Assembly (NCBI RefSeq): GCF_001426885.1
Contig: NZ_LMFP01000003.1
Location: 1,237,701 to 1,301,700, forward strand
Reading direction: 5' to 3'
DNA: 64,000 nucleotides
Origin: Pelomonas sp. Root1444
Lineage (GTDB): Bacteria; Pseudomonadota; Gammaproteobacteria; Burkholderiales; Burkholderiaceae_C
Below are positions 19,296-30,480 of this stretch, piece after piece. A program made the translations under genes and the position numbers. Each line of letters opens with the position of its first letter. Within the stretch, counting starts at the first letter, position 1. The notes beneath the pieces are model-generated. The model made no database searches. It saw only the letters and a program-made list of their open reading frames with translations, and was not told where the DNA came from.

Positions 19296-20222
19296 TCAGG
19301 CGACCATCGGCTCCACGCTGACGCCCACGTTCAGCTGCGCCACGCCGCCGCCGCGCAGCACGCCGCGCAGTGGCGCCACGTCGGCATAGTCGCGGCCCCA
19401 GGCCAGCGTGACATGGTCCAGCCCCGCGGGCACGGCGTTGGTCGGGTCCAGCGCCAGCCAGCCCTGCTCGGGGCACCAGACTTCGGCCCAGGCGTGCGAG
19501 GCGTCGGCGCCCACCAGCTTGGCCTGCCCCGGCGGCGGCCGCGTCAGCAGGTAGCCCGACACGTAGCGCGCCGCCAGGCCCAGCGAGCGGCAGGCGGCGA
19601 TGAAAACGTGGGCGAAGTCCTGGCACACGCCGCTGCGCTGCGCCAGTGCATCGGCGGCGCGCGTCGCCACCGTCGTGCTGTGCGGCTGGTAGCGCAGGTC
19701 GGTATGGATCTGGTGCATCAGCGCCAGCCCGCCCGCGGCCAGCCGGCGTCCGGGCGGGAAGGCGCGGCGCGCATAGGCGGCGAGCGCCTCGTCCGGCGCG
19801 GCGTAGGTGGAGGCCAGCGCGAATTCGTCGGCCTCCTGCAGCGCACGGCCGGCACGGTAGCGCAGGCTGCGCGCGACGGCCTCCCAGGCGGGGCCGCGGT
19901 CCACGTCGGGTGCTGGCCGGTCGGTCAGCGTGGCCTCGAAGCGGCTGTCAACGACGAGGCGCTCATGCACGCGCGCATGGCCGAAGCTCAGGTGCCGGTT
20001 GCCCCAGGGGTCGCGCCGCAGGTGGCGGGCCAGCTCGGCGGCGTCCAGCTCCAGGCCTTCGATGCCCCAGCCGTCGGGCAGCGGGTCGATGTTGAGCTTC
20101 CAGCCGCTGACCTTCTGCCCGGGCGTGTCGCGCGGCGCCAGGCAGGCGGCGTGGTAGGCCCACTCCACCGAGGCCTCGTAGGTGTACTCGGTGACGTGGT
20201 GGACCGCGAGCCGAACGCTCAT
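19296..20222 (-). CDS. Transglutaminase-like cysteine peptidase family protein
   Basis: A 308-residue protein with a bacterial transglutaminase N-terminal domain (about 1-85) and a transglutaminase-like core. The catalytic triad is visible as Cys in SGVCQDFAH, His in SHAWAEVW and Asp in ALDPTNAV. Members hydrolyse or transfer on amide bonds. The ATG at 20222 is fixed by an ATGA overlap with the upstream ATP-grasp-alpha-E fusion gene; a longer reading adds only two residues. Tight coupling to that gene marks it as part of the predicted peptide-synthesis or processing system described for this family set. Substrate unknown. Confidence 0.9.
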   Translation of the reverse strand: MSVRLAVHHVTEYTYEASVEWAYHAACLAPRDTPGQKVSGWKLNIDPLPDGWGIEGLELDAAELARHLRRDPWGNRHLSFGHARVHERLVVDSRFEATLTDRPAPDVDRGPAWEAVARSLRYRAGRALQEADEFALASTYAAPDEALAAYARRAFPPGRRLAAGGLALMHQIHTDLRYQPHSTTVATRAADALAQRSGVCQDFAHVFIAACRSLGLAARYVSGYLLTRPPPGQAKLVGADASHAWAEVWCPEQGWLALDPTNAVPAGLDHVTLAWGRDYADVAPLRGVLRGGGVAQLNVGVSVEPMVA

Positions 20223-22876
20223 TGCCACACCCGCTGCTCGGCGCCGAGCACATGCGCGAAGTAGCGCTGGCTGATCAGGCTGGACAGCTCGCCCGCCTGC
20301 GCCGCGGCGCGTGCCAGGTGCTGGACCAGCGCCGGCCCCGGTGCGGCCAGCTCGGCCAGCGGCCAGGCCTCGGGCACGGGCAGGTCGGCGGCGATGTCGG
20401 TGGCCCAGCCCGGGTCGTGGCGGGCCAGCTTGGCGAAGCGGTCGCGCAGCGTGCGCGCCACCCAGGCCAGCGAACGCGGGTTCTCGGTGTCGTGCACCAG
20501 CAGGTGCAGCAGCGGCGGCGCCTCGCGGCGAGCCTGGAACTGGGCGCGGTAGGTGATGGTGGAGTCGAACACGCCCAGCAGCAGCGCGAAGCCGTCCTCG
20601 GTGAGGGCAAGGTCTTGCGCAAAAGTCTCCGCCAGCACTTCCGCATGGAAGGACAGGCGCTCGATCTGGCGGCCGATGGACAGCAGCCGCCAGCCATCGT
20701 CGCGCGTCATGCGGTCGGTCTGGGCGCCGGTGATGGCGGCCAGGTGGGTGTCGGCGCGCGCCAGCACGTTGAGCACGTCGCTCACCGGCGCCATGGATGA
20801 GGCCGGGCCGGGGCGGTCCAGCACGGCGCGCAGGTGCTGCTCGAACTGCGCGGCGGTCTCGTGGATGAGGCGCCAGGCCTCAGGCGACAGCCGTTCGCGC
20901 AGCGCCAGTGCGCAGCCTTGCAGCGCGCGCAGGTTCCAGCCGACGCTGGTGACGCCGGAACTCGGCAGCAGCGAGGCGAGCAGCGCACGCTCGAAGCCGC
21001 GCGGGTCGTCCGCGGCCTGCGGCGCCTTGGCGTCGATGAGGCCGTGGCTGCGCGCCAGCGCGTCCAGCAGCGGCAGCATCGGCGCCGGCATGGCGCCGCG
21101 CTGCACCATGACGCTGGCCTCGATGACGTGGCGCGCCAACCGCGCGCTGTTCTCGGCGCGTTCGGTGTAGCGGCCCAGCCAGAACAGGTTCTCGGCGGCG
21201 CGGCTGGTGACGGTCCAGTGCACGTCGCGCAGGTCGGCGGCCTGCAGCGGCTGGGGCAGCAGCGAGGTGGGGTCGACCTCGCCGTCGGTCATGACCCAGG
21301 TGTCGGCGCTCAAGGACCCGCGCTGGATGGACAGCCAGGCGTCGGCCAGCGGGTCGCGGCGCGGCGCGACGCGGGTCAGGCCGCCCGGCAACACCTTCCA
21401 GCCGCCCTTGCCATCGGTCAGCGCGAACACGCGCAGCAGCGCCACCCGGGGTTCCAGCGCGCCGCGTATCCAGACCGGCTGCTTGGTCGGCTTGACGCGC
21501 GCCTGCAGCGTGTAGGCGGTGGGGTCGGCGTCGATGCGCGCAGCCAGTTCCTGCAGCGCCTCGGCGCCAAGTTCGGCGGCGACGACGGGCGCGAAATGCT
21601 GGGTCGTGCTGCTGGCCGAGAAGGTCGGCACGACGATGAACTCCGCCAGCCGCGGCCGCAGCGCGCGCCAGGCGCTCTCTTCGCCACACCACCAGCTCTG
21701 GATGGCCGGCAGCGAGAGTTCCTCGCCGAGCAGGCTCTCGGCCACGCCGGGCCAGAAGGCCGCGAGGCCGGGGCTTTCCAGCCAGCCGGCGCCAGGCGCG
21801 TTGGCGATGACCACCTCGCCGGCGCGCGCCGCCTGCAGCAGGCCCGGCACGCCGAGGATGGAGTCGGGGCGCAGCTCCAGCGGGTCCAGCCAGGTGTCGT
21901 CGACGCGGCGCAGCAGCACGTGCACGCGCTCCAGGCCGGCCAGCGTCTTGAGGTACACCTTGTCGGCGCGCACCGTCAGGTCGGCGCCCTCCACCAGCGT
22001 GATGCCGAGGTAGCGGGCCAGGAAGGTCTGCTCGAAATAGGTCTCGTTGCGCGGCCCGGGCGTCAGCAGCGCCACGCGGCTGCGCTCGCCGCCGGGCGAG
22101 AGCGTCGTTAGCGCGCGGATGAAGTCGCGGTAGCTGGCGGCCAGGCGCTGCACGGCCATCTGGCGGAAGGCCTCGGGGAACTGCTGGGCAATGATGAGCC
22201 GGTTCTCCAGCACATACCCGAGGCCCGAGGCGGCCTGCGTGCGCTGGCCGACCACCCACCAGTGGCCGTCGGCGCCGCGCGTCAGGTCGAAGGCCAGCAC
22301 ATGCAGGTGCACGCCGTGCGGCGGCCGGGCGCCGTGCATGGCGCGCAGGTACTGCGGATGGGCCAGCACCAGCGAGGCCGGCAGCAGGCCCTGCTGCAGC
22401 AGCCGGCGCTCGCCGTAGGTGTCGGCCATCACGGCCTCCAGCAGCCGCGCGCGCTGGGCGATGCCGGCCTCGATGTGGCGCCACTCCTCGGGCTCGATCA
22501 GCATGGGCAGCAGCTCGAGCGGCCAGTGGCGGGCCAGCGGCGCGCTGTCCTTGCCGTCTTCGCCCGGCAGCGGCGGCGCGTCGCTGTGCACGTTGTAGCT
22601 GGCGCCGTCCTCCAGCACACGGCGCTGCACGCGCAGGGCCTTGGCCGACAGCTCCTGCCAGCCGGCCGGGCCGCCAGCGGCGAAGAAGCGCTGCCAGCGC
22701 TCGCTGAGGCCGGCCTGCGGCTCGCCGGGCTGGTTGACCTGGCCGGTCAGCTCGTAGAAATGGCCGTCACGGCTGCGCAGCGCGCTGGAGGCGGCCTGCG
22801 CCAGCGGATCGGGGGCGGACGGCTCGTCCGCCTCGTCGGGGAGCAGGCTCCACTGACTGGGTGTGAGCTCGGGCAT
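20219..22876 (-). CDS. Fused circularly permuted ATP-grasp / alpha-E domain protein
   Basis: An 885-residue fusion. Residues about 70-530 match the circularly permuted ATP-grasp (DUF404/DUF407) family. Residues from about 545 to the end match the alpha-E (DUF403) helical family, opening with AAENLFWLGRYTERAENSAR. The same two modules are separate genes at 28967-30400 and 27876-28814. Compared with that stand-alone ATP-grasp, the region corresponding to its VVKEVHGAGGYGMLVG glycine loop reads EFIVVPTFSASSTTQHF here. This copy may therefore not bind ATP in the usual way. It overlaps the following transglutaminase by ATGA. The biochemical role is uncharacterised. Confidence 0.88.
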   Translation of the reverse strand: MPELTPSQWSLLPDEADEPSAPDPLAQAASSALRSRDGHFYELTGQVNQPGEPQAGLSERWQRFFAAGGPAGWQELSAKALRVQRRVLEDGASYNVHSDAPPLPGEDGKDSAPLARHWPLELLPMLIEPEEWRHIEAGIAQRARLLEAVMADTYGERRLLQQGLLPASLVLAHPQYLRAMHGARPPHGVHLHVLAFDLTRGADGHWWVVGQRTQAASGLGYVLENRLIIAQQFPEAFRQMAVQRLAASYRDFIRALTTLSPGGERSRVALLTPGPRNETYFEQTFLARYLGITLVEGADLTVRADKVYLKTLAGLERVHVLLRRVDDTWLDPLELRPDSILGVPGLLQAARAGEVVIANAPGAGWLESPGLAAFWPGVAESLLGEELSLPAIQSWWCGEESAWRALRPRLAEFIVVPTFSASSTTQHFAPVVAAELGAEALQELAARIDADPTAYTLQARVKPTKQPVWIRGALEPRVALLRVFALTDGKGGWKVLPGGLTRVAPRRDPLADAWLSIQRGSLSADTWVMTDGEVDPTSLLPQPLQAADLRDVHWTVTSRAAENLFWLGRYTERAENSARLARHVIEASVMVQRGAMPAPMLPLLDALARSHGLIDAKAPQAADDPRGFERALLASLLPSSGVTSVGWNLRALQGCALALRERLSPEAWRLIHETAAQFEQHLRAVLDRPGPASSMAPVSDVLNVLARADTHLAAITGAQTDRMTRDDGWRLLSIGRQIERLSFHAEVLAETFAQDLALTEDGFALLLGVFDSTITYRAQFQARREAPPLLHLLVHDTENPRSLAWVARTLRDRFAKLARHDPGWATDIAADLPVPEAWPLAELAAPGPALVQHLARAAAQAGELSSLISQRYFAHVLGAEQRVWQ

Positions 22877-23007
22877 CGCGGGTCGCTACGGCTGGCATGC
22901 AGCGCTGGGGAAAGGCAGGCATTGTCAATGCAATGCCAGCGCCTCAGCCTTCGGGTTGAACCGGCCCGGCGCCCGTATTTCTCGAGGCTCACGGCCGCCA
23001 AGCCGCA

Positions 23008-23892
23008 TCACGGCGCGTCGGGCATCCGGCTGTCGCCGGACTGCGCGCGCGGCGACAGGAAGGCTCGCAGCACACGCTCGGCCGCCTCGGGGTCGTCGCG
23101 CCAGGCGCCATGGCCCACGCCGGCAAAGCGCTCGAACTGCACCCATTGCGCCGGCAGCGCGGCGACGATCTCCTGCGCGTCCTCCAGCGGCGTGACCGGG
23201 TCCTGCTCGCCGGCCATCACCAGCACCGGGCATTGCACGTTCGCCAGGCCCGGGCGCAGGTCCATGCTGGGAAGCTCGGTGCGCGTGTGGGCGAACAGGA
23301 TCTCGGGCTTGAAGATCATCCAGCCGCCCGCGTTGGGGTTGCGGGCCTGGGTGTTGTAGAGATGGCGGCAGTGCTTCTCGTAGAGCGCCCAGGTGTCCGC
23401 GCCGGGGCGCTCCCAGAACGCGCGCGCCGCGTCCGCCGCGGCCGGGCCGCCGAGGGCGCCGAAGCGCTGGATCTTGCGCTCCAGGCCGAAGTGGTGGGAG
23501 GTGCTGGACAGCACGACCTTGCCGGGGTGTTGCGGATGCCGCGCCAGGTAGCGCTGCACGACGAAGCCGCCGAAGCTCTGGCCCAGCACGATGGGGTTGA
23601 CGATGCCGAGGGCCTCGCACAGCCGCACGATGTCGTCGGCGAACACGTCCAGCACCCATTCATCGGCCGGCCGCGGGTCGCTGCGGCCATGGCCGCGCAG
23701 GTCGAAGTAGACGACCTGGCAGAGGTCCGCGAAACGGCTGAAGAAGGGGCGGAAGGCGGTGTGGTCGAAGCCCGGGCCGCCGTGGACGAGGATGAGCGTC
23801 GGCTTCTCGCGCAGCTCGGGACCCTCCGGCACATGGCCGAGGCCTTCGATGTCGACGAAGAGGCGGACGCCGGGTTGGATTTCGATGCGCAT
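23008..23892 (-). CDS. Alpha/beta hydrolase, proline iminopeptidase-like
   Basis: A 294-residue alpha/beta-fold hydrolase resembling prolyl aminopeptidases and related S33 enzymes. The oxyanion region is LILVHGGPGFDHT, the nucleophile elbow is GQSFGGFV (Ser), and a late GVGHGAW motif carries the catalytic His. The start at 23892 follows the family; the frame continues upstream through the ParE-like toxin gene only as a shadow. The toxin stop lies 5 bases upstream, so the gene may be read through from the toxin-antitoxin operon. Its place between two transglutaminase/ATP-grasp sets makes a role in cutting their peptide product conceivable but unproven. Confidence 0.85.
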   Translation of the reverse strand: MRIEIQPGVRLFVDIEGLGHVPEGPELREKPTLILVHGGPGFDHTAFRPFFSRFADLCQVVYFDLRGHGRSDPRPADEWVLDVFADDIVRLCEALGIVNPIVLGQSFGGFVVQRYLARHPQHPGKVVLSSTSHHFGLERKIQRFGALGGPAAADAARAFWERPGADTWALYEKHCRHLYNTQARNPNAGGWMIFKPEILFAHTRTELPSMDLRPGLANVQCPVLVMAGEQDPVTPLEDAQEIVAALPAQWVQFERFAGVGHGAWRDDPEAAERVLRAFLSPRAQSGDSRMPDAP

Positions 23893-23897
23893 GGCGT

Positions 23898-24188
23898 TCA
23901 GCCTCGCCCTTGTCGCGCGGACGGCGGGCGTCGATGGTGGAAGACCGCCAGCACCCACAAGGTGCCCCCGGCGACGCGGTCGTAGAGCGAGTAGGGAAAG
24001 CGCCTCAGCACGACGCGCCGGCATCCCTCTTCGACTTCGGCGAATCCGTCAGGATTGCGGCACGCCGACTGCAACGCGGCGTCGAAGGCACGGGCGAACT
24101 CCAGGCCGAGGCCCACGGCTTGCGCTTCGTACCAAGCCTGGGCGTCGAGCAGCTCGGCGCGCGCCTCGGGCCTGAACAGCACGCGCAT
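23898..24188 (-). CDS. RelE/ParE-superfamily toxin
   Basis: This 96-residue protein has the ParE/RelE fold pattern. An N-terminal FRPEARAELLDAQAWYEAQ helix is followed by a central helical segment, then the strand pair RRFPYSLYDRV and LWVLAVFHHRRPP. Such toxins act on DNA gyrase (ParE) or on mRNA at the ribosome (RelE); this one looks closer to ParE by its long N-terminal helix. The antitoxin gene ends two bases upstream on the same strand, giving the usual antitoxin-first operon. The C-terminal tail is Arg-rich rather than the usual Trp ending. Confidence 0.88.
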   Translation of the reverse strand: MRVLFRPEARAELLDAQAWYEAQAVGLGLEFARAFDAALQSACRNPDGFAEVEEGCRRVVLRRFPYSLYDRVAGGTLWVLAVFHHRRPPSARQGRG

Positions 24189-24190
24189 GC

Positions 24191-24421
24191 TCAGCGCGAT
24201 GGCGTGGCGGCCATCAACTCCGCGCGAACCTCATCCCACGGGATGCCGGCATCGGGTTCAGCCTCGACGGCCAGCGACCGACGGCGCAACTCCAGGCGCT
24301 GCGCCTCCGTCAGGCCAGGCGCCTGGGCCGCATCGAGGGCGACGCTGTCCCACAAGTCCTCGGCAAGCTGGATGCGCTCAGCCACCGAGAGCTTGCGGAG
24401 TTCGGCGAGGTCGATGCTCAT
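24191..24421 (-). CDS. Addiction-module antitoxin (TIGR02574-type)
   Basis: A 76-residue protein of the addiction-module component family that pairs with ParE/RelE toxins. The N terminus (MSIDLAELRKLSVAERIQLA, then EDLWDS) is characteristic. The ATG at 24421 is preferred over an upstream alternative at 24439 because it matches the family start. It is transcribed with and two bases ahead of the toxin. The pair interrupts the minus-strand run of transglutaminase/ATP-grasp genes, so it may have been inserted there. Confidence 0.88.
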   Translation of the reverse strand: MSIDLAELRKLSVAERIQLAEDLWDSVALDAAQAPGLTEAQRLELRRRSLAVEAEPDAGIPWDEVRAELMAATPSR

Positions 24422-24446
24422 GCCGCAAGTTTGCACCAAGTAGGCT

Positions 24447-27400
24447 TCAACCCAGCTTGCGCAGATCCAGCGTGAACGGGAACTCGAGGCTGCGTTGCGG
24501 CTCTTTCACTTCGACACGACCCGGCGTGTGGCCGATGGACGCAAAACGCGCCAGGCGTCGGCTCTCCGCCTCGTAGGCGTTGACCGGCAGCGTGTCGTAG
24601 TTGCGACCGCCCGGGTGGGCGACGAAATAGCGGCAGCCGCCGAGGGACTTCTGCTGCCAGGTGTCGACGAGGTCCACCGTCAGCGGCGCATGGATGCCGA
24701 TGGTCGGGTGCAGCGCCGACTGCGGCAGCCAGGCGCGGTAGCGCACGCCGCAGACGAACTCGCCGACGCGGCCGGTGGGCTGCAGCGGCAGCGGCTGGCC
24801 GTTGACCGTCACGCGGTGGCGCGGGTCGACGAGGCCGCTCACGTGCAGCTCCAGCCGCTCCATCGACGCGTCCACGTAGCGCACGGTGCCACCGGCCGAG
24901 CCTTCCTCGCCCATCACGTGCCAGGGCTCCAGCGCGCCGCGCAGCGTGACGTGCACGCCGCGCGCGGCGAACTCGCCGTACTTGGGGAAGCGGAACTCGA
25001 AATGCGGCGCGAACCAGGCGGCGTCCAGCGCATAGCCGGCCTCGCCCATGTCCTGCATGACGTCGGCGAAGTCCTCGCGGATGAAGTGCGGCAGCAGCCA
25101 GCGGTCATGCAGCTCGGTGCCCCAGCGCACCAGCGGCGCGCGGTAGGGTGCTTGCCAGAAGCGCGCCACCAGCGCACGCAGCAGCAGCTGCTGCACGATG
25201 CTCATGCGCGCATGCGGCGGCATCTCGAAGGCGCGCAGCTCCAGCAGGCCCAGCCGCCCCGTCGCCGAGTCGGGCGAGTAGAGCTTGTCGATACAGAACT
25301 CGCTGCGGTGGGTGTTGCCGGTCACGTCGACGAGGACGTTGCGCAGCATGCGGTCGATCATCCACGGCTGAGTGTTGTCACCCAGACGGTGGATCTCGCC
25401 CAGCGCGATCTCCAGCTCGCGCAGCTGATCGTTGCGCGCCTCGTCCACGCGCGGCGCCTGGCTGGTCGGGCCGATGAACAGGCCGCTGAACAGGTAGCTC
25501 AGCGAGGGGTGGTTGTGCCAGTAGGCCAGCAGCGAGGCCAGCAGCGACGGCCGGCGCAGGAAGGGCGAGTCCGCCGGCGTGGCGCCGCCCAGCACGAAAT
25601 GGTTGCCGCCGCCGGTGCCGGTGTGGCGGCCGTCGATCATGAACTTCTCGCTGGACAGCCGCGTCAGCCGTGCGGCTTCGTAGAGGAACTCGGTGTGGTC
25701 GACCAGCTCGCGCCAGTTGTGCGCCGGGTGGATGTTGACCTCGATGACGCCGGGGTCGGGCGTGACCTGCAGCAGCTTCAGGCGCGGGTCGCGCGGCGGC
25801 GGGTAGCCCTCCAGCACGATCTTGAAGCCGGTGTCCTCGCAGGCGGCCTCGACGGCGGCGAGCAGTTCCAGGTAATGCTCGAGCTTCTCGAGCGGCGGCA
25901 TGAAGACGTAGAGCACGCCGCTGGCCTGCCCCTTGGCCTCGGCCGCCGGGCCGTTGGCGCGGCGCGGGTCGCGGGCCTCGACGCACAAGGCCGTGCGGGT
26001 CACGTCGTGGGCGCTCTCGAAGCGGCCAGGCGTGGCGTCGGCACGGGCGGCGCCCCCCGCCAGCCCCTCCCCGCCGGTGCTGGTGCTGGCGCCGCTCTGC
26101 CGCAAGCCCGGCGTCGGCCCCGCCGACGTCACGCCCTGCACCTGCGTGCGCAGCGCGGCCGCGGCGGGCAGCATGCCGCGCGGTGCGAAGGGGTCCTGCT
26201 CGATCAGGTAGGGGTAGTCGCCCTTGCTGACCCAGGGCAGCGAGTCCAGCGGCAGGCGCCAGCCCATCGGCGAGTCGCCGGGGTGCAGGTACAGGCGCTC
26301 GTCGCGCAGGAACCAGGGCCCCGTCTGCCAGCGCGCGCCGGCCAGCGCGGGCGCGTCGCCGCTGCGCCGGATGGGCAGCACATAGCCGACGACATGCGAC
26401 AGGCCCTGCTCGAAGATGCGGCGCAGGCGCGTGCGCTCCATCTCGTCGTCCAGCCGCGAGTCGAAGGGGTCGACGTTGACCGGCAGGCGGCGCTCGCGCC
26501 ACAGGTAGTAGAAGGTGTCTTCATAGCCGGGCCGCACATGGGCGTCGGTCAGGCCCAGGCGGCGCGCGAGCGCGCCCATGAAGGTGCGGGCGTGCTCGCT
26601 GGTGTAGGCATGGCCCTCGCGCTCGTCGGCGAACCAGTCGGGGTTGCGCCAGCAAGGCTGGCCGTCGGCGCGCCAGCAGATGGACAGCGCCCAGCGCGGC
26701 AGCTGCTCGCCGGGGTACCACTTGCCCTGGCCGAAGTGCAGGAAGCCGCCCTGCCCGTATTCGTCGCGCAGCTTGTGCGTCAGCTGCTGGGCATAGAGGC
26801 GCTTCGTCGGCCCGAGCGCGTCGGTGTTCCATTCGGGCGCGTCGCGGTCGGCGATGGCGACGAAGGTGGGCTCGCCGCCCATCGTCAGGCGCACGTCACC
26901 GGCTTCGAGTTCGCGGTCGACCTGCTCGCCGAGCTTGAGCACGTCGGCCCATTGCGCCTCGGTGTAGGGCTTGGTCACGCGCGGCGACTCGTAGATGCGC
27001 GTGACGCTCATCTCGTGGCCGAACTCGACCTCGCTCTGGTCCACGCCGCCGCTGATCGGCGCGGCGCTGCCCGGCGTGGGCGTGGCGGCCAGCGGGATGT
27101 GGCCTTCGCCGGCCATCAGGCCCGAGGTGGGGTCCAGGCCGACCCAGCCGGCGCCGGGCAGGTAGACCTCGCACCAGGCATGCAGGTCGGTGAAGTCGAC
27201 CTCGGTGCCGCTGGGGCCGTCGAGCGCCTTCTCGTCGGGCGTCAGCTGGATCAGGTAGCCCGACACGAAGCGGGCCGCCAGGCCCAGGTGGCGCAGCACC
27301 TGCACCAGCAGCCAGCCGGAGTCGCGGCAGGAGCCCGAGGCCTTCTGCAGCGTCTCCTCCGGCGTCTGCACGCCGGGCTCCAGCCGGATCAGGTAGGACA

Positions 27401-27866
27401 CGCTGCGTTGCACGCGCTGGTTGAGGTCGACGAGGAAGTCGATGGTCGTGCGCTCGGTGCGCGGGATGTCCGCCAGGTAGGCGGCCAGCAGCGGCGTGAC
27501 CGGCTCGACCTGCAGGTAGGGCGCCAGCTCGATCTGTTGCGCCTCGTCGTAGCCGAACGGGAAGGTCTGCGCGTGCGGCTCCAGGAAGAAGTCGAACGGG
27601 TTGTAGACCGACATCTCGGCGACCAGGTCTACCGTGACGGTGAACTCGGTCGTCTTCTCGGGGAACACCAGCCGCGCCAGGTAATTGGCGAACGGGTCCT
27701 GCTGCCAGTTGATGAAGTGCCCTTCGGGCTCGATGCGCAGTGAGTAGCTCAGCACCGGCGTGCGGCAATGCGGCGCCGGGCGCAGGCGCACGACCTGCGG
27801 GCCGAGGCTGACCGGACGGTCGTACTTGTAGCGCGTGACGTGCTTGAGGGCGACGTGTATGGACAT
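24447..27866 (-). CDS. Transglutaminase-DUF2126 fusion protein
   Basis: A large 1139-residue protein. The N terminus is a bacterial transglutaminase N-domain (1-85), then a transglutaminase core near residues 150-260 with Cys in GSCRDSGW, His in DLHAWCEV and Asp in LDPTSGL. The rest matches DUF2126, a long domain of predicted enzyme function. It follows the alpha-E and ATP-grasp genes with only 9 bases between this start and the alpha-E stop. Comparative genomics of amidoligases has predicted that this trio makes and processes a peptide. No member of the DUF2126 part has an activity I can state. Confidence 0.92.
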   Translation of the reverse strand: MSIHVALKHVTRYKYDRPVSLGPQVVRLRPAPHCRTPVLSYSLRIEPEGHFINWQQDPFANYLARLVFPEKTTEFTVTVDLVAEMSVYNPFDFFLEPHAQTFPFGYDEAQQIELAPYLQVEPVTPLLAAYLADIPRTERTTIDFLVDLNQRVQRSVSYLIRLEPGVQTPEETLQKASGSCRDSGWLLVQVLRHLGLAARFVSGYLIQLTPDEKALDGPSGTEVDFTDLHAWCEVYLPGAGWVGLDPTSGLMAGEGHIPLAATPTPGSAAPISGGVDQSEVEFGHEMSVTRIYESPRVTKPYTEAQWADVLKLGEQVDRELEAGDVRLTMGGEPTFVAIADRDAPEWNTDALGPTKRLYAQQLTHKLRDEYGQGGFLHFGQGKWYPGEQLPRWALSICWRADGQPCWRNPDWFADEREGHAYTSEHARTFMGALARRLGLTDAHVRPGYEDTFYYLWRERRLPVNVDPFDSRLDDEMERTRLRRIFEQGLSHVVGYVLPIRRSGDAPALAGARWQTGPWFLRDERLYLHPGDSPMGWRLPLDSLPWVSKGDYPYLIEQDPFAPRGMLPAAAALRTQVQGVTSAGPTPGLRQSGASTSTGGEGLAGGAARADATPGRFESAHDVTRTALCVEARDPRRANGPAAEAKGQASGVLYVFMPPLEKLEHYLELLAAVEAACEDTGFKIVLEGYPPPRDPRLKLLQVTPDPGVIEVNIHPAHNWRELVDHTEFLYEAARLTRLSSEKFMIDGRHTGTGGGNHFVLGGATPADSPFLRRPSLLASLLAYWHNHPSLSYLFSGLFIGPTSQAPRVDEARNDQLRELEIALGEIHRLGDNTQPWMIDRMLRNVLVDVTGNTHRSEFCIDKLYSPDSATGRLGLLELRAFEMPPHARMSIVQQLLLRALVARFWQAPYRAPLVRWGTELHDRWLLPHFIREDFADVMQDMGEAGYALDAAWFAPHFEFRFPKYGEFAARGVHVTLRGALEPWHVMGEEGSAGGTVRYVDASMERLELHVSGLVDPRHRVTVNGQPLPLQPTGRVGEFVCGVRYRAWLPQSALHPTIGIHAPLTVDLVDTWQQKSLGGCRYFVAHPGGRNYDTLPVNAYEAESRRLARFASIGHTPGRVEVKEPQRSLEFPFTLDLRKLG

Positions 27867-27875
27867 GCGTGGCCC

Positions 27876-28814
27876 TTAGACGAGGAAGTCGCGGCTGATG
27901 GCCGAACCGAGATCGGCAACCTCGGCCAGGAAGCCATCGAGGAAGGGGTGCAGGCCCTGGGCCAGGATCTCGTCGATGCGGCCGAAAGCCAGCTCGGCCT
28001 CCAGGCGCCCGACGCGGCGCAGCGTCTCGCCGGACTGGGCATTGGCCACGCGCTTGAGGTTGGCCTGCATGCGCGTCACGCAATGCGACAGCGAGCGCGG
28101 CATGTCGGGGCGCAGGATCAACAGCTCGGCCACCTTGTCCGGCTGGATGACGTTGCTGTAGACCTTGCGGTAGATCTCGAAGCCCGACACCGAGCGCAGC
28201 ACGGCCGACCAGTAGTAGAAGTCCCGTGCGGTGTCGCGCTCGGTCGAGGCCTCGCCGTCCTGGCGATAGAACTTCACGTCGATCAGCCGCGCCGTGTTGT
28301 CGGCGCGCTCCAGGAAGGAGCCGATGCGGATGAAGTGGAAGGCCTCGTCCTGCAGCATGGTGCCGACCGTCACGCCGCGCGACAGGTGCGAGCGGTACTT
28401 GACCCACTCGAACAGCTGCGACGGGTCGCGCGCCAGCGCGCCTTCGCGCAGCAGGCGCCGGAACTCCAGCCAGGTCTGGTTCATCGTCTCCCAGACCTCG
28501 GTCGTGAGAGACCCTCGCACCGCCCGCGCGTTCTCGCGCGCGGCGCGCAGGCAGTTGTAGATGGACGAGAGATTGCTCTCGTCGGCCACCATGAACTCCA
28601 TGACGTTGCGGCCGTTGATGGCCGCGTACTTGGCGCCGTACAGGCCGTTCAGCTCGGAGATGGACACCAGGCTGCGCCAGGACTGCTCGGACTCCTGTGC
28701 CGACTGCGGCTGCAGCGACGTCTGGTAGGCGATGTCCAGCATCCGGGCCGTGTTTTCGGCCCGCTCGATGTAGCGGCTGAGCCAGAACAGGTGGTCGGCG
28801 GTCCTAGAGAGCAT
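27876..28814 (-). CDS. Alpha-E domain protein (DUF403)
   Basis: A 312-residue, almost wholly helical protein with the alpha-E family opening (MLSRTADHLFWLSRYIERAE, then NTARML) and closing helices. Its function is unknown; the family is found almost only beside circularly permuted ATP-grasp and transglutaminase genes, or fused to the former, as in the 885-residue protein of this window. It lies between the ATP-grasp and transglutaminase-DUF2126 genes on the same strand, 9 bases from the latter. A tandem hairpin sits in the 152-base gap upstream. Confidence 0.92.
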   Translation of the reverse strand: MLSRTADHLFWLSRYIERAENTARMLDIAYQTSLQPQSAQESEQSWRSLVSISELNGLYGAKYAAINGRNVMEFMVADESNLSSIYNCLRAARENARAVRGSLTTEVWETMNQTWLEFRRLLREGALARDPSQLFEWVKYRSHLSRGVTVGTMLQDEAFHFIRIGSFLERADNTARLIDVKFYRQDGEASTERDTARDFYYWSAVLRSVSGFEIYRKVYSNVIQPDKVAELLILRPDMPRSLSHCVTRMQANLKRVANAQSGETLRRVGRLEAELAFGRIDEILAQGLHPFLDGFLAEVADLGSAISRDFLV

Positions 28815-28910
28815 GGCACAGTCTCACGAAAAGTTGTTCATCAGGCACCGCGCGCCGAAGCTTGCGCGATATCCAGCGGACGCCGCAGAACCGGCTTTGC
28901 CGGGCTGCTG

Positions 28911-28952
28911 GCGTCGCCCCCTTGAGGGGGCCGGCGAAGCCGGTAGGGGGTG
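28911..28952. repeat. Tandem-hairpin intergenic repeat
   Basis: Two adjacent hairpins are seen: GCCCCC-TTGA-GGGGGC (28916-28931) and CCGGC-GAA-GCCGG (28931-28943), followed by TAGGGGGTG. The last 20 bases (28933-28952) occur again in inverted orientation at 49852-49871. Such C-tract/GAAGCCGG elements resemble small dispersed intergenic repeats of Burkholderiales. It falls between the ATP-grasp and alpha-E genes and could attenuate or stabilise their transcript. The rest of the gap shows nothing else. Confidence 0.6.
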
Positions 28953-28966
28953 GGCTGACCATTCCC

Positions 28967-30400
28967 TCAGTCTTCCAGGACCCAGGTGTCCTTGGTGCCG
29001 CCGCCCTGGCTGCTGTTCACCACCAGTGAGCCCTCCTTCAACGCGACCCGCGTCAGCCCGCCCGGCACCATGCGCACGGATGCCCCCGACAGCACGAAGG
29101 GTCGCAGATCAATATGACGGGGCGCGATGCCTGATTCGACGAAGGTCGGGCAGGTGGACAGCGACAGCGTCGGCTGCGCGATGTAGTTGCCGGGGTTGGC
29201 GACGATGCGCTCGCGGAAGGCCGCGATCTCGGCCTGCGTCGCCGCCGGGCCGACCAGCATGCCGTAGCCGCCCGCGCCGTGCACCTCCTTCACCACCAGC
29301 TCGCCCAGGTGGGCCAGCGTGTAGGCCAGGTCCTCCTTCTCGCGGCACACATAGGTGGGCACGTTCTGCAGGATGGGTTTCTCGCCGAGGTAGAACTCGA
29401 TCATCTTCGGCACGTAGGGGTAGATGGACTTGTCGTCGGCGATGCCGGTGCCGATGGCGTTGGACAGCGTCACCTTGCCGGCCTTGTAGGCACCGACCAG
29501 CCCCGCGCAGCCCAGCTGCGAGTCGGCGCGGAACACCTGCGGGTCGAGGAAGTCGTCGTCCAGGCGGCGGTAGATGACGTCCACCCGCTTGGGGCCGCGC
29601 GTGGTGCGCATGTACACGAAGCCGCCATCGACAAACAGGTCCTGGCCCTCGACCAGCTCCACGCCCATCTGCTGGGCCAGGAAGGCGTGCTCGAAGTAGG
29701 CCGAGTTGTACATGCCCGGCGTCAGCACGACGACGGTGGGGTCGGACACACCCGACGGCGCCACGCTGCGCAGCGTGTCCAGCAGCAGGTCGGGGTAGTG
29801 CGCCACCGGCGCGATGCGGTGCTGCACGAACAGCTCGGGGAAGAGCCGCATCATCATCTTGCGGTTCTCGAGCATGTAGCTCACGCCCGAGGGCACGCGC
29901 AGGTTGTCCTCCAGCACGTAGTAGTGGCCGCTGCCATCGGCGTGGCCGGCGCGCACGATGTCGACGCCGGCGATGTGGCTGTAGACGCCGCCCGGCACGT
30001 CCACGCCCATCATCTCCTTGCGGAACTGGGCGTTGTTCAGGATCTCGTCGGCGGGCACGATGCCGGCCTTCAGGATCTCCTGGTCGTGATAGACGTCGTG
30101 GATGAAGCGGTTCAGCGCCGTCACGCGCTGCGCCAGCCCGGCCTGCATCGACGTCCATTCGGCAGCCGGGATGACGCGCGGGATCAGGTCGAAGGGGATC
30201 AGCCGCTCGGTGCCCTCGCCGCTGTCCTTGTCGCCATACACAGCGAACGTGATGCCCACGCGCCGGAAGATCAGTTCAGCCTGCGCGCGCCGCTCGCGCA
30301 TCAGGGATTCGGGCTGCTCCGCCAGCCAGCGGGCATAGGCCTCGTAGTGGGCGCGGGTGGCGGTCCCCGCGGCATTCATCTCGTCAAAGGCGGTCTGCAT
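28967..30400 (-). CDS. Circularly permuted ATP-grasp protein (stand-alone)
   Basis: A 477-residue member of the circularly permuted ATP-grasp type 2 family (DUF404/DUF407). The mid-region shows the conserved YVLEDNLRVPSGVSYMLENR block, and the C-terminal part has the glycine-rich nucleotide-binding loop VVKEVHGAGGYGMLVGP. ATP-grasp enzymes ligate a carboxylate to an amine at the cost of ATP. With the alpha-E and transglutaminase-DUF2126 genes directly downstream it forms the predicted peptide-ligase operon. The start at 30400 has a GGAGCG-type ribosome-binding site. The product is unknown. Confidence 0.92.
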   Translation of the reverse strand: MQTAFDEMNAAGTATRAHYEAYARWLAEQPESLMRERRAQAELIFRRVGITFAVYGDKDSGEGTERLIPFDLIPRVIPAAEWTSMQAGLAQRVTALNRFIHDVYHDQEILKAGIVPADEILNNAQFRKEMMGVDVPGGVYSHIAGVDIVRAGHADGSGHYYVLEDNLRVPSGVSYMLENRKMMMRLFPELFVQHRIAPVAHYPDLLLDTLRSVAPSGVSDPTVVVLTPGMYNSAYFEHAFLAQQMGVELVEGQDLFVDGGFVYMRTTRGPKRVDVIYRRLDDDFLDPQVFRADSQLGCAGLVGAYKAGKVTLSNAIGTGIADDKSIYPYVPKMIEFYLGEKPILQNVPTYVCREKEDLAYTLAHLGELVVKEVHGAGGYGMLVGPAATQAEIAAFRERIVANPGNYIAQPTLSLSTCPTFVESGIAPRHIDLRPFVLSGASVRMVPGGLTRVALKEGSLVVNSSQGGGTKDTWVLED

Positions 30401-30480
30401 CGTCGCTCCTGTTCCCTGCCGCGTCGCAATTTACGCGCCCGCCCAGACAGAAGCTTCCGGTGCGCGCACGCACGACCAGC

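Follow-up and report, generated by a model that had tools for sequence, protein, structure and literature searches.

Paired ATP-grasp paralogues, one apparently without catalysis, in two diverged operons of a predicted peptide-conjugation locus in Pelomonas sp. Root1444

Introduction

A peptide-tagging system of an ATP-grasp protein, an alpha-E protein, a transglutaminase, and the Anbu peptidase was reportedly predicted by Iyer et al. in 2009. The prediction of 2009 is cited in later papers (PMC5666114, PMC6376114, PMC3597751), and the role of the system is still unconfirmed as far as the accessible parts of the literature show. Its genes are common: alpha-E was detected in 84 of the 276 evenly sampled genomes of the class and in 131 of the 150 genomes of the family that were compared in this study. 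Here, we describe a locus of this kind in a stretch of 64,000 nucleotides (the window; contig NZ_LMFP01000003.1) of Pelomonas sp. Root1444, whose Roseateles-like genome comprises 5.9 Mb in 33 contigs. Five genes of the predicted peptide-ligase system are located there on the minus strand, with the domains that a preliminary description of the same DNA had assigned to them. With moderate confidence, we regard these genes as one joint peptide-conjugation system, in which an active ligase is accompanied by a pseudo-ligase partner and which is encoded in two diverged operons. As part of such a system, the two sets would be sisters that diverged anciently and abut in this genome.

Results

Two sets of paralogous genes at one locus

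The first gene of operon I encodes a separate circularly permuted (CP) ATP-grasp protein (28967..30400, minus strand as for all five genes; 477 amino acids; 552 bits to PF14403), which is predicted to be active, and the second gene encodes a separate alpha-E protein (27876..28814; 312 amino acids; 330 bits to PF04168). After a gap of 9 bases, operon II starts with a transglutaminase-DUF2126 gene (24447..27866; 1139 amino acids; 1330 bits to PF09899), followed by a gene for a CP-ATP-grasp-alpha-E fusion with a putative pseudo-ATP-grasp (20219..22876; 885 amino acids) and a stand-alone transglutaminase gene (19296..20222). The product of the latter has 308 amino acids when its start is taken at the ATG of the ATGA overlap with the TGA of the fused gene; this overlap, pointed out in the preliminary description, is real. 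Both ER motifs of alpha-E are intact in the separate as well as in the fused protein, and the Cys-His-Asp triad of the transglutaminase fold is present in the DUF2126 protein (Cys180-His229-Asp245) and in the stand-alone transglutaminase (Cys200-His243-Asp259). DUF2126 is described in Pfam as a putative amidoligase and looks like a ligase with a predicted glutamine-synthetase-like fold.

The amino acid identity of the paralogues over the aligned parts is 32% for ATP-grasp, 25% for alpha-E, and 28% for the transglutaminases. The description as two non-identical copies in one block thus applies with regard to the sequences, but the block is not continuous, as a hydrolase gene and a toxin-antitoxin pair lie in between. 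Two alpha-E matches were detected in this genome, both at this locus. Among the named records of the scan, the fused gene is closest to two from Roseateles, with 89% identity.

Catalytic residues of the separate and the fused ATP-grasp

The locus was compared to 120 stretches taken from genomes of the class and the family, a further 40 taken from genomes of the phylum and the family, 80 named loci, five plasmid regions, and 29 short loci from a phylum search. All 80 named loci had been chosen by similarity to the fused protein. Genes were assigned by BLAST with the window proteins first and then by profiles over 275 loci including the window. The ATP-grasp set, from which segments shorter than 330 residues were dropped, decreased from 363 to 359 sequences (189 separate, 170 fused) upon removal of duplicates.

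The separate ATP-grasp of the window possesses D147, E164-D-N166, K324, K371, and a GGYG loop, and hence the E-x-N motif, both lysines, and the glycine loop of an active ligase. In contrast, the fused protein lacks this combination; D197 is kept, whereas the E, N, and two K positions are occupied by G210, R212, P369, and V416. In an end-to-end profile alignment, D147, E164, N166, K324, and K371 align with the matching motif residues of YgiC, YjfC, and Gss, and the E-x-N motif is likely a metal site. A first comparison showed both E164 and N166 in 99/99 separate and 0/46 fused sequences. In the complete set, both residues are kept in all 189 distinct separate sequences and in one of the 170 distinct fused sequences, the other 169 of which keep neither. 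When the 84 fused sequences that had been chosen by similarity (79 from named loci, five from plasmids) were set aside, the motif was found in 0/85. The single exception, L085_8196, looks like an A-type ATP-grasp that was fused on its own, because it groups with the separate sequences in the phylogenetic tree. At its locus (L085, 4818-10874), a B-type fused gene lies next to this A-type fusion of ATP-grasp and alpha-E, which has the complete motif. The pair serves as a natural control, since it indicates that the motif is not lost merely through fusion.

Separate and fused ATP-grasps form distinct clades in the tree, a comparison proposed in the preliminary description: the 189 separate sequences and L085_8196 stand on one side and the 169 fused sequences on the other (node support 0.319, branch length 1.33, midpoint rooting). 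Given the low node support, the separation of the clades rests more on the long branch and on the residues. Among the latter, K324 is kept in 1/169 fused versus 189/189 separate sequences, D431 in 0/169 versus 188/189, and the full GGxG loop with its three glycines in 1/169 versus 188/189, while 154 of the 169 fused sequences carry S, A, or G at position 164. Judged by these residues, the fused ATP-grasp looks catalytically dead.

A few features of the fused family would also fit an enzyme that is still active with altered chemistry, that is, with another metal or nucleotide mode and with a conserved R and a conserved Q taking over in catalysis. N166 is replaced by R in 148/169 sequences and R168 by Q in 157/169, D147 is nearly always kept (165/169), K371 is present as K or R in 126/169, and 20 columns are conserved at the 95% level that in the separate family are not conserved or hold another residue. 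We nevertheless consider such an activity improbable, since both putative metal ligands were lost along with K324, D431, and the glycine loop, each in 168 or 169 of the 169 sequences. Moreover, 56 columns are conserved to at least 95% in the fused family versus 137 in the separate family, although the sampling of the two families differs.

Two types of loop were observed at residues 371-380 of the separate ATP-grasps, one similar to KEVHGxGGYG (G375; 102/189) and one similar to KPANESGGYG (E375; 85/189). A glutamate with a possible role as third metal ligand is absent from the former type.

Apparent dependence of the fused gene on an A-type copy

In the class sample, DUF2126 was detected in 53 genomes, all of which belong to the 84 genomes with alpha-E. 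The B-type fused gene is present in 26 of the 276 genomes, and each of these 26 also harbors an A-type ATP-grasp (a separate copy in 25, the A-type fusion of L085 in one). Of the 26, 24 also contain DUF2126; the two without it are G011 and G090. The chances calculated for the two nestings (1.6e-15 and 3.6e-35 for independent genomes) overstate the case because the genomes are related. In the family sample, 94 of 150 genomes contain DUF2126. Fourteen DUF2126-negative genomes of this sample have at least two alpha-E matches among the matches listed; nine of them contain a fused-type frame, in all nine cases together with a separate one, and the other five hold fragments or doubtful second matches. 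Eight of the nine fused copies were fetched, and none of the eight has the E-x-N motif. In the contig-broken genome G318, the second copy is a 79-residue end piece only.

The phylum search revealed alpha-E in 115 of 199 genomes. All 33 genomes with a fused-type frame among the matches listed also contain a separate alpha-E gene; a frame was first judged as fused by its open frame and score, and 31 of the 33 were then fetched. The two copies are more than 2 Mb apart on one contig in three of these genomes. No genome with the fused gene but without an A-type or separate copy was found among the class, family, and listed phylum genomes sampled. An independent distribution of the two sets, which according to the preliminary description would have spoken against a joint system, was accordingly not observed (26/26, 9/9, and 33/33 among the matches listed). 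The fused gene thus appears to be bound more strictly to the A-type copy than to DUF2126, and linkage seems not to be the only cause.

These patterns also bear on the question of whether operon II forms a second ligase system of its own, in which DUF2126 would be the catalyst and the fused protein a scaffold, and which would yield a second product under similar control. We regard this as rather unlikely, though worth considering. The fused gene occurs without DUF2126 in G011, G090, and nine family genomes, it was never encountered without an A-type or separate copy in the genomes sampled, and DUF2126 also adjoins operon I in some loci that have no fused gene. The preliminary description had offered either two products or a heteromeric machine as explanations for the side-by-side architecture. 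The former is weakened, since a fused ATP-grasp without catalytic residues would probably not form a second product by ordinary ATP-grasp chemistry; some weight remains with it, as DUF2126 itself resembles a ligase of the glutamine-synthetase type. The heteromeric machine gains support from the constant company of an A-type or separate copy, from the lost catalytic residues, and from the shared sigma-54-type sites described below.

Operon architecture across loci

Operon I consists of genes for ATP-grasp, alpha-E, transglutaminase, and the Anbu peptidase (e.g., in L215, L221, and L229). Operon II comprises the genes for transglutaminase-DUF2126, the fused ATP-grasp-alpha-E, and a transglutaminase, and was found in Granulicella (Acidobacteriota), in Azospirillum and Shinella (Alphaproteobacteria), and in the window's own class. 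Of the 170 fused genes, 113 have the DUF2126 gene as their immediate upstream neighbor, to which five with a partial DUF2126 gene can be added, and 159 have a transglutaminase gene as their immediate downstream neighbor. A gene was scored as upstream neighbor when it was on the same strand with a gap of <600 bases; for 40 of the 170 fused genes none was scored, and the window fails this rule because inserted genes follow DUF2126. For the separate alpha-E genes (n = 198), the next gene encodes a transglutaminase in 43 and DUF2126 in 31 cases, while nothing was scored in 78. A longer series of ATP-grasp, alpha-E, transglutaminase, DUF2126, fused gene, and transglutaminase is found in L116 and L120. 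The transglutaminases fall into three clades in a tree built without segments of <200 residues, identical segments, and segments in frames with ATP-grasp or alpha-E matches.

Because of this conserved two-operon layout, the first of the two sets in the preliminary description, which combined DUF2126 with the separate genes, has to be read as the first genes of operon I together with the first gene of operon II; DUF2126 belongs to the operon of the fused gene. The side-by-side layout, which had been implied to be rare, is not special to this genome and was seen in other loci.

All five genes are also encoded in the window's order on an IncFII plasmid of a clinical Enterobacter roggenkampii (L209, 3162-12353). 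As the 20-kb stretch of this plasmid contains arsC and one copy of IS26, too, the set may move as a unit. Second, weaker matches to DUF2126 were observed in open frames of approximately 700-750 codons, with approximately 318-362 bits to PF09899; they are located on other contigs or at a large distance from the loci described here (among the matches listed, G039:C5:74043, G166:C2:62063, G137:C130:41920, G331:C39:41854, G318:C38:6068, and G382:C1:2758809). They perhaps represent a separate subfamily.

Sigma-54-type sites at the heads of both operons

Sigma-54-type sites were defined as TGGCAC-N5-TTGC with GG and GC required and were searched within 250 bases upstream; the expected numbers were derived from Markov controls. 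Upstream pieces of <240 bases were dropped, as were pieces whose last 80 bases exactly repeated those of another, and many of the loci scanned are related Burkholderiales. Of the heads of operon I (n = 147), 53 carry a site with at most one mismatch and 92 a site with at most two (2.4 and 12.6 expected). Of the DUF2126 heads (n = 101), 48 and 60 do so, respectively (1.6 and 7.2 expected). For the controls, the corresponding numbers were 0 and 5 for inner fused genes (n = 124; 1.8 and 10.8 expected), 0 and 10 for inner alpha-E genes (n = 178; 1.2 and 13.0 expected), and 0 and 5 for fused genes scored as heads (n = 45; 0.2 and 4.8 expected). Less clean were the inner transglutaminases (n = 198; 3 and 37 with a site, 4.0 and 20.6 expected), the inner ATP-grasps (n = 20; 3 and 5 with a site, 0.4 and 1.2 expected), and the transglutaminases scored as heads (n = 37; 3 and 8 with a site, 0.2 and 3.0 expected). 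Where both heads of a locus could be scored (n = 55, at most two mismatches), sites were present at both in 37 loci, at operon I only in seven, at DUF2126 only in seven, and at neither in four. A response of the two sets to unrelated conditions, the second observation that would have counted against a joint system, is not apparent from the data covered here.

In the window, a candidate sigma-54 site (GGGCGCGTAAATTGC; 30426..30440, minus strand) was identified 25 bases before the ATG of the separate ATP-grasp. With two mismatches it is weak when taken alone; similar sites are present in L105, L106, and L127. Two RpoN-type matches were detected in this genome.

The sites at both heads agree with a published finding that operon-I genes of Pseudomonas putida are induced depending on the nitrogen source. 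According to the available part of that study (PMC8050072), PP_2685, named there as the beta subunit of a bacterial proteasome, was induced by +4.44 log2 and PP_2688, a circularly permuted ATP-grasp of type 2, by +3.99 log2 with nitrate versus ammonium. An association of these domains with urea-metabolism domains is given in the accessible part of a marine metagenome study (PMC3597751). Operons I and II are probably co-induced under nitrogen limitation via sigma-54, with nitrogen as the signal that we infer.

Gene arrangement in the Pelomonas genome

In the window, the CP-ATP-grasp gene of operon I is followed by the alpha-E gene on the same strand. No operon-I transglutaminase was found beside alpha-E; both Bact_transglu_N matches of the genome are of the operon-II type, and transglutaminases without that domain were not looked for. 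Anbu is missing from operon I of the window. A candidate of the proteasome family (247 amino acids) sits on contig 11 (L004, 1492-2235) among unrelated-looking frames, and the genome search gave no alpha-E match on that contig.

The genes of operon II are in order on one strand, with three other genes after DUF2126. An alpha/beta hydrolase gene (23008..23892, minus strand) lies between DUF2126 and the fused gene and is probably an insertion in operon II. Four Roseateles-like loci (L105, L106, L126, and L127) have this hydrolase at the same position (79-88% identity). The genes for a ParE-type toxin (23898..24188, minus strand) and its partner, an Unstab_antitox antitoxin (24191..24421, minus strand), are outside the ligase system; for this pair, no match was found in the other loci compared, among which it is thus particular to this genome. 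An open frame of 1082 codons (24495-27743, plus strand), antisense to the DUF2126 gene, is most likely a high-GC shadow and not a gene.

One might conclude from this arrangement that the block is a decaying remnant, with its operon-I transglutaminase lost, Anbu orphaned, and operon II interrupted. The location of the genome's only two Bact_transglu_N matches at this locus, the position of the Anbu candidate on another contig, and the inserted hydrolase and toxin-antitoxin genes would agree with decay. We consider it very improbable, however, as the five genes are of full length and carry their family motifs, and the presence of the hydrolase in the same gap of four Roseateles-like loci shows that the layout has lasted.

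Discussion

As parts of one joint system, the two operons could share the work as follows. Judging from fold and residues, the ligase that does the work would come from operon I: its separate ATP-grasp would use ATP to convert a carboxyl group to an acyl-phosphate and join it to an amine, and alpha-E would serve as its helical partner. Alpha-E is likely a docking or substrate element, because it is present with both forms of ATP-grasp. Operon II would contribute the apparently dead ATP-grasp fused to alpha-E and, with DUF2126, a second ligase. Both the active ATP-grasp and DUF2126 would form amide bonds between acids and amines, and the two transglutaminase-fold cysteine enzymes may trim, process, or transfer the product. 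The pseudo-ligase might be the fixed partner of the active one, either as a scaffold or acceptor platform that unites alpha-E, the substrate, and DUF2126, or as a regulator. Through the fusion, the pseudo-ligase would keep alpha-E permanently attached, and it may carry the substrate or regulate the active copy.

A more specific proposal, which we put forward tentatively and with less confidence than the joint system as such, is a conjugation machine of Proteobacteria and Acidobacteriota that is induced by nitrogen limitation. It would contain three ligase proteins, namely an active ATP-grasp, its obligate dead paralogue fused to alpha-E, and a ligase with glutamine-synthetase fold, and would generate some nitrogen-linked peptide product or protein tag. 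If this is true, one of the three ligase proteins in the machine is a pseudoenzyme that functions as scaffold or regulator. The pairing, in the genomes sampled, of an apparently dead ligase with a live paralogue and the sigma-54-type sites at both heads lead to concrete experimental questions on the role of the system. Partners of the four-gene Anbu operon may be encoded elsewhere, which is a possible reason why work on that operon showed no complex or product in the accessible parts of the reports.

Among the known ligases, the solved structure 3n6x, a putative glutathionylspermidine synthase of Methylobacillus flagellatus, is close to the separate ATP-grasp (phmmer E-value 5e-217) and has the motif E-D-N. 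E. coli Gss, YgiC, and YjfC, annotated as glutathionylspermidine synthetase and peptide-spermidine ligases, show 9-10% identity, and no gene annotated as alpha-E, DUF2126, or transglutaminase was found in the regions fetched around them. YgiC and YjfC are the nearest relatives with a named activity, the annotated joining of peptides and spermidine, which may serve as a lead to the class of substrate and no more. In the RloABC operon of Pseudomonas aeruginosa (PMC12239564), an ATP-grasp protein is likewise encoded together with a peptidase and a transglutaminase that is inactive, as far as the available part of that paper describes it. There, RloC is likened to RimK and the inactive part is the transglutaminase, whereas here it would be the ATP-grasp; the analogy is drawn from the descriptions only.

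The same families as in the predicted Anbu system are encountered in the window, where operon I corresponds to the predicted operon minus its last two genes. The citing papers, in their accessible parts, present one four-gene operon. The window adds a paralogous operon with a residue-poor ATP-grasp, and this second operon shares the promoter type of the first in relatives. No earlier report of a dead paralogue or of the sigma-54 signature at both heads was found in the literature covered, which did not include the founding paper of 2009. The system itself is thus not new, having been predicted in 2009; the putative pseudoenzyme lineage and the shared sigma-54 signature are the parts added here.
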